A DNA stretch of 64,000 bases from Candidatus Hydrogenedentota bacterium. Lineage in GTDB: Bacteria; Hydrogenedentota; Hydrogenedentia; Hydrogenedentales; SLHB01. This document shows positions 15,277-55,599 of this stretch, piece after piece; position 1 is the first letter of the stretch; every line of letters starts with the position of its first letter. The notes below the pieces were generated by a model, which worked only from the letters and a program-made list of their open reading frames with translations, was not told the origin of the DNA and made no database searches. The DNA lies in NCBI GenBank assembly GCA_016215105.1, contig JACRLJ010000033.1:18951-82950 (forward strand), read 5' to 3'. The position numbers were made by a program, and so were the translations under genes.

Positions 15277-16548
15277 TTATCCCAGTTTCGAGAATACGTC
15301 CAGCGCGCGCCGGGCGTCCACCTCTGCATAGATCTCCGTCGTGGATGCAGAACTGTGGCCAAGCGCCACCTGTGCGCCCTCAAGTCCAAATTCTTGGCGA
15401 ATGCGGGTTGCGGCGGTGTGGCGTAATTGGTTTGGCGACCACGATGGAACGCCTACCTTCCCATCCGATTCTTTCCGCGCCTTCGTGTCGGCCCGTTCGC
15501 ATCCGCGCCGGACAGCCTGCGCATACGCCAAGACGCTGTAGCAGTCGCCGACTACCCGTGTTGACTTCTTGGCGTTCGGCATTTGGTCGGGGCGCCGGTG
15601 GCTTAATGCGGCCGCGTGACGCTCGGCTTCCGCATGACGGGGCGAGAACAGGAACGCGCCGACGGGCCGCTCCAGCAGCCACGGCTTGAGTATCTCTTGT
15701 GCCTTTGGCCCAAAGTACAGGGTACGCGCGCGACCGCGGTAGGCCGTCTTGTGTTGCGCCAGTTCGGCGGTCCACACGGCGCCTGTGCGGTTGATCATGT
15801 TGGCCTTGAGCACAACGACTTCGCCGGGTCTGGCGCCGCTGTATCGCTGCAATTGCACCATGGCCCAAACTTGCCGCGAGACATACGGCTGGATAGCGTC
15901 AACGTGGGCGTCCAGGACGGGCCTCACGGGCTCGGGTTCCTTTGCGAGACTCCTACCCCTCTTCAACCCGCCCAGCATCCCCAACGCCACCGCCGCCGCC
16001 GCGGGAATCAACTCTTTCGCGGCAGCCCAGCGCCAAGCCAGCTTGACTACGCCCGTCATGGCATTGATTGAGGTACGGGCCAACTTCTTGGCGATCCAAC
16101 GCTCCCGTACTGCGTCCAACTTCGTCGGCCCAAACTGCCCCGCGTCGATATCGGCGTAGATCTCGAGCACGCCATTCAGAGCGCTCTGGACGCGCGCGAT
16201 TTGCCCCGAGGGTGATCCGTCCGCTTTGACGTAGTACGCTTTGGCGTAGTCCAGAAACATGGCGCACACCTCGGCTACGCTGATATCGGGTTGCGCTGTT
16301 TCAGGTGACGTATCGGGCGCGTCGGGGTCTTTGAATGGGTACACATACCCGCCGCGGCGCCATTTGGAGAGCATGTCGCCGTACTTCTTCTCACAGTCCG
16401 GGTCATCCCGTCTGCAAAGGTAGACTTGATGTCCACTGAGCCGGACGAAGGCGCGGCCCGATGCGGCATGGGTACAGAGCTTTGGTGTCTTCTCTTTCCG
16501 CTCGGGCGTTTTGTCGGGATCTGTTTTTGGTACGTTTTTGGGTAGCAT
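15277..16548 (-). CDS. int: tyrosine recombinase/integrase
   Basis: YSGARPGEVVVLK, NQLRHTAATRI, ALGHSSASTTEIYAEVD catalytic motifs; next to the att/tRNA. Confidence 0.9.
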   Translation of the reverse strand: MLPKNVPKTDPDKTPERKEKTPKLCTHAASGRAFVRLSGHQVYLCRRDDPDCEKKYGDMLSKWRRGGYVYPFKDPDAPDTSPETAQPDISVAEVCAMFLDYAKAYYVKADGSPSGQIARVQSALNGVLEIYADIDAGQFGPTKLDAVRERWIAKKLARTSINAMTGVVKLAWRWAAAKELIPAAAAVALGMLGGLKRGRSLAKEPEPVRPVLDAHVDAIQPYVSRQVWAMVQLQRYSGARPGEVVVLKANMINRTGAVWTAELAQHKTAYRGRARTLYFGPKAQEILKPWLLERPVGAFLFSPRHAEAERHAAALSHRRPDQMPNAKKSTRVVGDCYSVLAYAQAVRRGCERADTKARKESDGKVGVPSWSPNQLRHTAATRIRQEFGLEGAQVALGHSSASTTEIYAEVDARRALDVFSKLG

Positions 16549-16660
16549 GTGCGAACCTCCAAGGGTGCGATTGGTACGAATACCAACCATTTCCGTGAGT
16601 TCGTCCGCACTGCCACGCTGGCAGGTATCAAGCTAAGTGCTTGATTCGGCAGGATTTAAT

Positions 16661-16868: not shown

Positions 16869-17660
16869 TCACAGTCGCGATACGCCAAACCCGCCGCCGA
16901 CCTCGATGACCGCGCCGGTCGCATAGTCGAAATAGCCTTCGGCGAGCGCCACGACGGCCTTGCCTACGTCTTCTTGTGTACCCCATCTCTGTTGTAGCAG
17001 TATACCGTCTGCGATCAGTTTGTCGTATTTCGCCTGTACCCCCGCAGTCATGTCGGTGGAGATAATTCCGGGCCGGATTTCGTACACGTTGATACCGTGC
17101 TCGGCGAGGCGCACCGCGAAGTTTTGCGCAGTCATACTCAAGCCGGCCTTGCTGACGCAGTACTCGGCGCGGTTGGGGCTGGCCGTGTTTGCGGAGATGC
17201 TGGTGACAAACACCAGTTTTGGCGGGTAGGCTGTTCTGCCGGCCTGTAATTGCTTCACCATTTGATTTGCGATGGATTGCGCAAGGAAGAACGGTCCGCG
17301 CAAATTGATCTGGATCAAGCGGTCAAAGCTCTCTTCGGTCGTTTCCAATATGTCGAGCCGTTGTAGCGGGGCGACCCCGGCGTTGCTCACGAAGAGGTCG
17401 ATTCCTCCGAGAGTATCGACAGCCGCCTCGATCAACCGAGCGTGGCCGGCGCAATTGGCGACATCGCTTACTATCGGTAGAAAGCGCTGCCCCAACGCCT
17501 CGACTCGAGCCTTGACCTCGTACAGCCCTGTCTCGGTGTTGCTAGGATCGGCCTTCGTCGCCGTTGCCACGATGTCGTATCCGTGTTCCGCCAGCGAAAG
17601 CGCGATACCGCGCCCAATTCCACGGCTGGCGCCGGTGATGAGCGCTACCGCTTTGGCCAT
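16869..17660 (-). CDS. SDR-family 3-ketoacyl-ACP reductase-like oxidoreductase
   Basis: MAKAVALITGASRGIGRGIALSLAEHG; YCVSKAGLSMTAQNFA; the ORF extension upstream of M is repeat-derived. Confidence 0.87.
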   Translation of the reverse strand: MAKAVALITGASRGIGRGIALSLAEHGYDIVATATKADPSNTETGLYEVKARVEALGQRFLPIVSDVANCAGHARLIEAAVDTLGGIDLFVSNAGVAPLQRLDILETTEESFDRLIQINLRGPFFLAQSIANQMVKQLQAGRTAYPPKLVFVTSISANTASPNRAEYCVSKAGLSMTAQNFAVRLAEHGINVYEIRPGIISTDMTAGVQAKYDKLIADGILLQQRWGTQEDVGKAVVALAEGYFDYATGAVIEVGGGFGVSRL

Positions 17661-17677: not shown

Positions 17678-17733
17678 CAGGGTCTGGGGTACAGGGTACA
17701 GGGTCTGGGGTACAGGGTACAGGGTACAGGGTG
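17678..17733. repeat. heptamer tandem array (8 x 7 bp)
   Basis: CAGGGTC TGGGGTA CAGGGTA CAGGGTC TGGGGTA CAGGGTA CAGGGTA CAGGGTG. Confidence 0.93.
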
Positions 17734-17859
17734 CGAAATGCACGGGTCATGTTGTACGGTAGGGTAAGTTCCACGTGGGCGATTATTGGTCGTGATGCGA
17801 GGGTGTCTTCTTGCGAAGGCCCAAATCACTTACGAAGCAGTGACCTTCGAGGGAAGAGC

Positions 17860-18249
17860 ATGGGACTAAAGAATTACCGGGAATTGGATGCCTGGCAGAA
17901 GGCTATGGATTTGGTAGAATCCGTTTACCGCCTCACAGCTGTGTTCCCTCCGCACGAGAGATATGGACTCGCTGGCCAAGCACAACGGGCTGCTGTTTCC
18001 ATACCCGCAAATATCGCTGAGGGATACGGTCGAATACACCGAGGCGACTACTTGCATCACCTTTCTATCTCCAGCGGTTCGTTGGCCGAATTGGAGACTC
18101 ACCTGACCATTGCTGTTCGCTTGAATTACGTTCCGCGGGAAGACGCAGTCGAAACCTGGGGCCACGTCCGAGAGACCGGCAAACTCCTTACGAAACTGAT
18201 GCAATCGCTAGACGCGAAACAAAAGCCGTCTCGACCGAAGAAGACCTGA
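17860..18249 (+). CDS. four-helix bundle protein (S23/IVP family)
   Basis: MGLKNYRELDAWQKAMDLVESVYRLTAVFPPHERYGLAGQAQRAAVSIPANIAEGYGR is the diagnostic family signature. Confidence 0.92.
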   Translation: MGLKNYRELDAWQKAMDLVESVYRLTAVFPPHERYGLAGQAQRAAVSIPANIAEGYGRIHRGDYLHHLSISSGSLAELETHLTIAVRLNYVPREDAVETWGHVRETGKLLTKLMQSLDAKQKPSRPKKT

Positions 18250-18276
18250 ACCCCAGACCCTGAACCCTGAACCCGG
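18245..18276. repeat. heptamer array, inverted relative to 17678-17733
   Basis: CCTGAAC CCCAGAC CCTGAAC CCTGAAC CCGG; reverse complement GGGTTCA/GGGTCTG units. Confidence 0.88.
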
Positions 18277-18299
18277 CGCTTGACACCGCGACACGGTAG

Positions 18300-19070
18300 G
18301 TGACAGTCTTGTCCATGCTCATGATTCAGTCGGAGAACCTTCGGAAGGTGTTTCATGCCTCGCGCGGCAGGACAGTGGAAGCCGTGCGCGGCGCGACGTT
18401 CTCCGTCGCTGCGGGCGAAATCTTTGGTCTACTCGGACCGAACGGAGCCGGTAAGACCACGCTCTTGCGTATGCTGGGGACGATCATTACTCCCTCGTCC
18501 GGTCACTGTTGGATTGCGGGTAATCGAACCGATTTGGCGACCGATGAGGTGCGTCATCACATCGGGTTCCTGTCCGGTAATACCAAGCTTTATGGACGCC
18601 TGACCGCACGGGAACTGTTGCGGTACTTTGGCCGGCTCTACGGCATGCCCGACCCGGCGATCGCGAAGCGTTCCGAGGAATTGGCTGCAATGCTGGGTAT
18701 GGGTGAGTTCATGGAGAGGCGTTGCGACACGTTGTCCACCGGGCAGAGCCAAAAGGTCTCCATCGCGCGCGTGCTCTTGCACGATCCGGAAGTCCTCATT
18801 CTGGACGAGCCGACGCTGGGGCTTGACATCATGACCAGCACGACGATTCTCGATTTCATTCTCGACGCCAAACGCCGGGGGCACTGCATAATCTTCTCGA
18901 CGCACTACATGTCAGAGGCCGAACTTCTCTGCGACCGGGTCGGCCTCATCTACAACGGTTCGTTGCTGGCCATCGGGACCAAGCAGGAACTCTATGAGGC
19001 CACGGGAACGGACAATATACAGGCTGCGTTTCTTGCCATGGTCGGCGCCGAGGAGCGCAAGCACGCATGA
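18300..19070 (+). CDS. ABC transporter ATP-binding protein (NatA-like)
   Basis: GLLGPNGAGKTTLLRMLG; LSTGQSQKVSIARVLLHDPEVLILDEPTLGLD. Confidence 0.9.
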   Translation: MTVLSMLMIQSENLRKVFHASRGRTVEAVRGATFSVAAGEIFGLLGPNGAGKTTLLRMLGTIITPSSGHCWIAGNRTDLATDEVRHHIGFLSGNTKLYGRLTARELLRYFGRLYGMPDPAIAKRSEELAAMLGMGEFMERRCDTLSTGQSQKVSIARVLLHDPEVLILDEPTLGLDIMTSTTILDFILDAKRRGHCIIFSTHYMSEAELLCDRVGLIYNGSLLAIGTKQELYEATGTDNIQAAFLAMVGAEERKHA

Positions 19071-21104: not shown

Positions 21105-21147
21105 GGATCAGACGGATCGGACCGATCTGACTGATCGGACTGGTCGG
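21105..21147. repeat. nonamer tandem array, TCGGAC family
   Basis: GGATCAGAC GGATCGGAC CGATCTGAC TGATCGGAC TGGTCGG. Confidence 0.8.
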
Positions 21148-22580: not shown

Positions 22581-22619
22581 ATCGGACAAGTCGGACAGGT
22601 CAGACGGATCGGACCTGAC
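22581..22619. repeat. nonamer tandem array, TCGGAC family
   Basis: ATCGGACAA GTCGGACAG GTCAGACGG ATCGGACCT GAC. Confidence 0.8.
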
Positions 22620-51505: not shown

Positions 51506-51540
51506 AAGTCGGAGCGCGAAGACCTAGCCTTCGTAAATCT

Positions 51541-51665
51541 CAGATCTCAGATCCCAGATCCCAGATCCCAGATCCCAGATCCCAGATCCTAAACCCTAAA
51601 CCCTGAACCCTGAACCCTGAACCCTGAACCCTGAACCCTGAACCCTGAACCCGGAACCCTGAACA
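51541..51665. repeat. heptamer tandem array, about 18 units, composite motif
   Basis: CAGATCT, (CAGATCC)6, (TAAACCC)2, (TGAACCC)7, GGAACCC, TGAAC. Confidence 0.95.
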
Positions 51666-55566: not shown

Positions 55567-55599
55567 GCTTGTCCGACTTGTCCGACCTGTCTGACCGTC
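55567..55599. repeat. nonamer array forming the entire T3PKS-GNAT intergenic gap
   Basis: Minus strand GGTCAGACA GGTCGGACA AGTCGGACA AGC-ATG. Confidence 0.8.

Follow-up and report, generated by a model that had tools for sequence, protein, structure and literature searches.

S23 genes between inverted heptamer arrays: a broad class of presence/absence cassettes among protein genes

The S23 protein was first seen inside bacterial ribosomal RNA genes, and its family is by now some 30 years old. Structures have been solved since 2006, and we know of no function assigned to the family; homologues of the S23 fold form a pentamer. A related arrangement is found in the REP/REPIN-RAYT systems: inverted copies of a short repeat stand on both sides of a gene, and further copies occur by themselves elsewhere in the genome. 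Another close system is the intervening sequence (IVS) of the Coxiella 23S rRNA, which comprises an S23 ORF and terminal inverted repeats, is processed by RNase III, and carries two or three tandem GACAGAT heptamers, the number of which differs between strains (PMC4990558). A mobile role for the IVS ORF was suggested in 1993 by Ralph and McClelland, as cited in PMC4990558.

The window, that is, the whole 64-kb stretch of DNA analyzed here, contains an S23 gene with the following surroundings:

16869..17660, minus strand: left neighbour, divergent, SDR / 3-ketoacyl-ACP reductase gene (NF009386, 322.9 bits)
17678..17732, plus strand: left heptamer array (GGGTCTG/GGGTACA)n, chance expectation 0.01 matches per 64 kb
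17733..17859, plus strand: leader from the left array to the gene, 127 bp (usually ~20-100 bp), with a GA-rich SD-like GAGGGAAGAG ahead of the ATG
17860..18249, plus strand: gene of the S23 / 23S_rRNA_IVP four-helix-bundle protein, 129 residues, ATG to TGA
18247-18249: stop codon TGA of the S23 gene, inside the right array
18245..18275, minus strand: right heptamer array, GGGTTCA/GGGTCTG on this strand, reverse complement of the left unit, about 4.3 copies (CCTGAAC/CCCAGAC)
18280..18285, plus strand: TTGACA hexamer, by eye the probable -35 box of the ABC gene
18321..19070, plus strand: right neighbour, ABC transporter ATPase, NatA-like (PF00005, 108 bits)
51537..51664, minus strand: solo composite array, (GATCCCA)n then (CCTGAAC)n, with no S23 gene nearby

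The arms of the cassette are inverted repeats (27/30 bp over the best stretch of their alignment); this alignment and the coordinates confirm the original prediction of inverted heptamer arrays around the gene, the right one covering its stop codon. The pattern (GGGTNNN)x2+GGGT returns 16 matches in the window, against 0.01 expected from dinucleotide shuffles, six of them in the left array, two in the right array and eight in the gene-less array at 51593-51659. The (CCTGAAC)n part of the solo array at 51537-51664 is the unit of the right arm, and this array lies between a dus-like gene and an ankyrin-repeat-like gene, the latter interrupted by a TAG at about 52046. The TTGACA hexamer starts five bases past the end of the right array, and a TTGACA motif is also seen by eye upstream of natA in many relatives. 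S23 is the only recognized ORF of the cassette, which encodes no transposase and has no match in the phage collection. Compared with other members of the class described below, it is atypical in its divergent left neighbour and its 127-bp leader. Rather than in a 23S (or 16S) rRNA gene, it sits between the SDR and ABC genes; the prediction that neither rRNA nor a diversity-generating retroelement (DGR) is present also holds, with these two neighbours and a genome free of RVT_1 matches. Near the left end of this neighbourhood, a long ORF on the minus strand (15277-16590) has the look of a putative tyrosine recombinase/integrase.

Profile search of the window protein reports strong hits with PF05635 (120 bits, cut-off 33.8) and TIGR02436 (112.6 bits, cut-off 24), in agreement with the predicted S23 membership. 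The Avd profile scores 26.2 bits, below its cut-off of 80. The AlphaFold model (pLDDT 91.7) has 2GSC as its best PDB match (52% identity), followed by 2RLD, Avd 4DWL, and the DGR ribonucleoprotein 8UB7. At fixed sites, dN/dS of S23 orthologues amounts to 0.10 in Rhizobium, 0.11 in Flavobacterium, and 0.14 in Brucella/Ochrobactrum (5 pairs only). Judged from these ratios of about 0.1, the S23 gene is under purifying selection and encodes a working protein. No catalytic motif was identified in the cassettes.

The same anatomy recurs far beyond the window. By protein similarity alone, 129 homologous loci from many phyla were gathered, comprising a first set of 49 loci with up to 20 kb of context and a second set of 80 further loci with named organisms, distributed over Planctomycetota, Pseudomonadota, Bacteroidota, Cyanobacteria, Acidobacteriota, Chloroflexi, Clostridia, Gemmatimonadota, candidate phyla, and one archaeal bin. 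Around the 49 genes, period-7 arrays reach 2.8/kb in the 250 bp upstream versus 0.059/kb beyond 1 kb (32 in 541 kb); an upstream array is present at 31 loci, a downstream one at 33, and at least one at 39. S23 flanks are thus enriched about 50-fold in heptamer arrays, so the check by which the original prediction was to be refuted did not refute it. Near the genes of the 80-locus set, 76 period-7 and 17 period-8 arrays were counted, every other period giving at most 3. Independently of any period or presumed unit length, alignment of the upstream flank to the reverse-complemented downstream flank passes the threshold that was set at 104 of 127 loci, as compared with 3.8% for flanks of different loci and 16/127 in the direct orientation. 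A third set of 12 named genomes, partly overlapping the second, yields inverted flanks in 25 of 29 loci. Units of 8 bp instead of 7 bp are found at six loci (L145, L143, L148, L194, L206, and L219), inverted on both sides in most, and the arms are direct rather than inverted at two (L074 and L042). S23 cassettes are a real and broad class of presence/absence cassettes between protein genes, about 450-600 bp in size.

Several loci depart from this scheme. Among the other four PF05635 matches of the window genome, two are without arrays, one has weak inverted heptamers, and one is a larger variant with 9-bp arrays. Locus L005 (G000:C168, S23 match 1501-1698) comprises a larger S23-like gene with a weak PF05635 score and GTCNGAC 9-bp arrays upstream, a second 9-bp array apparently lying in frame inside the coding region; it may be a 9-bp counterpart of the cassette. 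At L101 (G096:C4:217329-218692), two S23 genes stand in a row, the second match being partial, and array copies with almost identical units, GAAGACA, occur at several places (L060 153, 1429, 1871, and 2604); this unit is close to the Coxiella IVS heptamer GACAGAT. Genome G075 returns twelve S23-like matches with weak scores, which may belong to a different small-protein family; several of them form divergent pairs spaced by a few hundred bases. On Nostocales plasmids (L186-L189), S23 genes stand in operon-like rows beside integrase or hypothetical genes and are not isolated cassettes. Twin S23 genes on two Calothrix plasmids were considered as a recent transposition, which was rejected since the neighbouring genes are also shared and the genes are operonic.

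The repeat unit varies from locus to locus yet agrees from left to right. Within a locus, the left array and the inverted right array have 37% of their 9-mers in common, versus 1% between loci, and none of 20000 permutations did as well. Unit similarity also tracks protein similarity (Mantel r=0.23, p=0.0005, unchanged after GC correction), the mean unit cosine rising from 0.05 at a protein similarity of 0.3-0.4 to 0.18 at 0.6-0.75 and 0.38 above 0.75. Read by eye, the MRDHRKL subfamily goes with AG(G/T)CTNN-type units and the YREL subfamily with GGGTNNA-type units. A stop trinucleotide is present in 77 of 98 arrays; stop codons in all three frames were nevertheless rejected as the general reason for the period, since 9-bp arrays exist.

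Most S23 genes point the same way as their neighbours, in 100 of 117 loci for the upstream neighbour and in 81 of 116 for the downstream one, and S23 begins a median of 66 bp behind the stop codon of the upstream gene; these values come from a simple ORF caller, which makes some errors at GC-rich loci. Where presence and absence could be compared at orthologous sites, the cassettes mostly occupy a narrow space immediately behind the stop codon of a gene in like orientation. Flanks read by eye place cassettes inside operon pairs, namely nuoC / nuoD in Rhizobium, Bosea, and another Hyphomicrobiales, carA / carB in Ramlibacter, pheS / pheT in Granulicella, and others. That all cassettes are rRNA IVSs was considered because shared flanks of several loci resembled rRNA in a blast comparison, and was rejected: Rfam reports none and the flanks are operon genes such as nuoC/nuoD and carA/carB. 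LSU rRNA is absent from the 10 loci searched with Rfam, and conserved 23S motifs turn up in just one of the 129 locus records, where they lie on the opposite strand.

Orthologous sites with and without a cassette can be compared. The site upstream of natA, compared in 20 relatives of the window genome, holds neither S23 nor arrays, and the SDR gene still adjoins it in 9 of them, so that the cassette is missing there in conserved synteny. In Brucella/Ochrobactrum, an empty gap of 11-23 bp contrasts with filled ones of 459-497 bp, the latter with 3 to 7 units of GGGAGTAA, a copy number that differs between close species. One species (L267) has another unit (AGGGCAGT) on both sides together with a diverged S23, 76-78% identical to the other Brucella/Ochrobactrum S23 proteins, which are 88-97% alike. 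In Mesorhizobium, the 25 empty junctions read measure 29-35 bp, versus 456 bp for the filled site, where the upstream gene takes its stop codon from the array. In Brucella and Mesorhizobium the boundaries can be placed with an uncertainty of a few bases, and the empty sites are precise, as for a DNA transposon or insertion sequence. No target-site duplication is evident at the junctions read, where filled and empty flanks are 10-20% diverged. The nuoC-nuoD gap of Rhizobium measures either about 65-82 bp or about 485 bp (60 genomes); here empty and filled intergenic regions give no clean alignment and the exact junctions are uncertain. At least three kinds of cassette with differing units occupy this site; their S23 proteins are ~60% identical across kinds and the nuoD DNA is ~90% identical, and therefore gene and arrays change together. 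One species (L241) has kept the right array alone, as a solo scar. Orthologous cassettes are kept across more than 20 Flavobacterium species, and no pair of recent near-identical cassettes was found at different sites of one genome.

Since the empty sites are without any repeats, the arrays come in together with the gene; the idea that an S23 gene had entered an array already in place was rejected on this ground and also for the inverted, not direct, orientation of the arms. Taken together, these comparisons show that gene and arrays appear and disappear jointly, without fixing by themselves which way each single event ran. The original prediction of a cassette is thus strongly supported by the constant anatomy, empty and occupied orthologous sites, replacement of whole cassettes, and loss leaving a solo array. 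For its further proposal that the unit moves, the support is comparative; neither an intermediate of transposition nor a target duplication nor an enzyme was detected.

Arrays are also dispersed on their own. The pattern (GGGTNNN)x2+GGGT matches 83 times in the window genome, and most of these places have no S23 gene. Of the 67 genomes of the order compared, 16 encode a close homologue of the window S23 (at least 100 bits against P0001), and 14 of these carry longer GGGTNNN arrays, versus 12 of the 51 others (Fisher p=7e-6); for any S23 match the counts are 18 of 31 with and 8 of 36 without (p=0.005). Neither comparison is corrected for kinship or genome size. The dispersed unit is that of the resident cassette in several genomes (GGGTATA in G056, GGGTCTA/GGGTTTA in G033 and G039). 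That the cassette expands repeats, as originally proposed, is suggested by these solo arrays matching the resident unit; the relation is a correlation. Pairs of inverted arrays separated by only short stretches (G000:C61:27338/27410, G056:C66:2120/2215, and G039:C27:31884/32030) look like gene-less derivatives of cassettes. A second dispersed tandem repeat family has a 9-bp unit with the palindromic core GTCNGACNN, found in the window at 21106-21147, 22582-22605, and 55568-55595 and genome-wide in G000; its pattern GTCNGACNNGTCNGACNNGTCNGAC gives 117 matches per strand in the genome versus 3 for the reversed control.

We consider it probable that these loci, the window element among them, form a widespread class of small DNA cassettes, each with one S23 gene and, at either end, inverted arrays of a short unit (mostly 7 bp, at times 8, perhaps 9), with array recognition and host-borne copying as the proposed mode of action. 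The arrays would act as DNA terminal inverted repeats recognized by the S23 protein, and protein and arrays together would let the host machinery copy or insert the cassette at gene ends. S23-array activity, or polymerase slippage and template switching in the repeats, could then spread and homogenize the arrays genome-wide, and the 23S rRNA IVS with an S23 ORF would be a special case of such a cassette lodged in rRNA. More tentatively, and with less than even confidence, S23 cassettes may constitute a separate, transposase-less class of mobile DNA, with ends made of its own 7-9 bp arrays and recognized by a pentameric S23; such elements would insert at gene termini and give rise to the heptamer arrays scattered through many bacterial genomes, rRNA IVSs being members trapped in rRNA.

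An unlikely alternative is that S23 is a host-function gene located by chance in repeat-rich gaps, the arrays arising by slippage, their two sides being homogenized by template switching, and the whole travelling passively by homologous recombination. The strong purifying selection on S23, the variable copy number between close Brucella/Ochrobactrum species (3 to 7 units), and the retention of orthologous cassettes in Flavobacterium are what such a history would leave; empty sites devoid of any repeat, a single anatomy in many phyla, units that follow the protein, and different cassettes at one site are at odds with it. The arms could instead work at the RNA level, forming a long stem in a polycistronic transcript that RNase III would cut, isolating or removing the S23 mRNA, with insertion being neutral in operons. 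Such processing is known for the Coxiella rRNA IVS with its S23 ORF and heptamer-bearing terminal inverted repeats (PMC4990558), the cassettes are mostly co-directional with the upstream gene, and in the window cassette the predicted RNA fold has z=-2.8 with both arms paired. Selected pairing of the sense RNA, however, predicts more G-U than A-C mismatches between the arms, while 152 G-U and 150 A-C were counted (p=0.95, 116 loci) and the Flavobacterium orthologues show the reverse (62 A-C, 27 G-U); in addition, the window cassette shares no operon with the gene on its left. With G-U equal to A-C, a selected RNA stem is not supported and the arms are therefore better read as DNA-level inverted repeats; this RNA reading is quite improbable. 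Their inverted complementarity is most simply explained as a DNA property, although young arrays may be too recent to show weak selection.

Very improbable is a retro-mobile element in which S23, like Avd, partners a reverse transcriptase acting in trans that copies the cassette and expands the arrays. In fold, S23 matches Avd as seen in 4DWL and within the DGR ribonucleoprotein 8UB7, and the Avd profile does give its weak score of 26.2. Yet a search for reverse TRANSCRIPTASE with the RVT_1 profile returned no match in the window genome (95% complete), nor do four other genomes with array-bearing S23 genes (G034, G039, G062, and G065) have one, and S23 and reverse transcriptase are unassociated over the 67 genomes of the order (Fisher p=0.15). 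This lack of association led us to reject a reverse transcriptase in trans, and it argues against an obligate Avd-like partnership of S23. The link between protein and unit also provides a possible source of the heptamer arrays that many bacteria have between their genes. Both S23 function and ORF mobility can be tested directly, since intact, polymorphic cassettes are available outside rRNA in genera that can be cultured, Rhizobium and Flavobacterium among them.

Among known systems, DNA transposons and insertion sequences leave similar empty sites, but the encoded transposase is missing from the S23 cassette. The Avd protein of diversity-generating retroelements (4DWL, 8UB7) has the four-helix-bundle fold in common and a remote profile similarity, whereas here the Avd score is below cut-off and there is no reverse transcriptase, template, or variable repeat. 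Cyanobacterial STRR and Beggiatoaceae TAACTGA repeats are likewise intergenic tandem 7-bp arrays, some in common lineages; the terms S23 and intervening sequence are absent from their description (PMC4679880), and a link to S23 is a hypothesis. As in REP/REPIN-RAYT, the S23 gene is flanked by inverted copies of a genome-dispersed repeat; however, S23 is an all-alpha four-helix bundle and not a Y1/HUH transposase, and its repeat is a tandem 7-8 bp array instead of a short palindrome. The full texts searched, which cover subscription papers and preprints thinly and so are weak evidence on this point, hold no account of S23 cassettes outside rRNA; the original description of the element as undescribed stands to that extent, but the Coxiella rRNA IVS already combines an S23 ORF, inverted repeats, and heptamers (PMC4990558). 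With the 23S rRNA IVSs of Coxiella and Leptospira (PMC4990558), the cassettes share the S23 ORF between inverted repeats and the sporadic presence, and with that of Coxiella also tandem heptamers (GACAGAT) of variable number. Unlike them, they lie between protein genes, with an intact ORF under purifying selection, arrays on both sides, a unit that varies with the protein, and no sign of selection for RNA pairing. The window element is a relative of the 23S rRNA IVS living outside rRNA.
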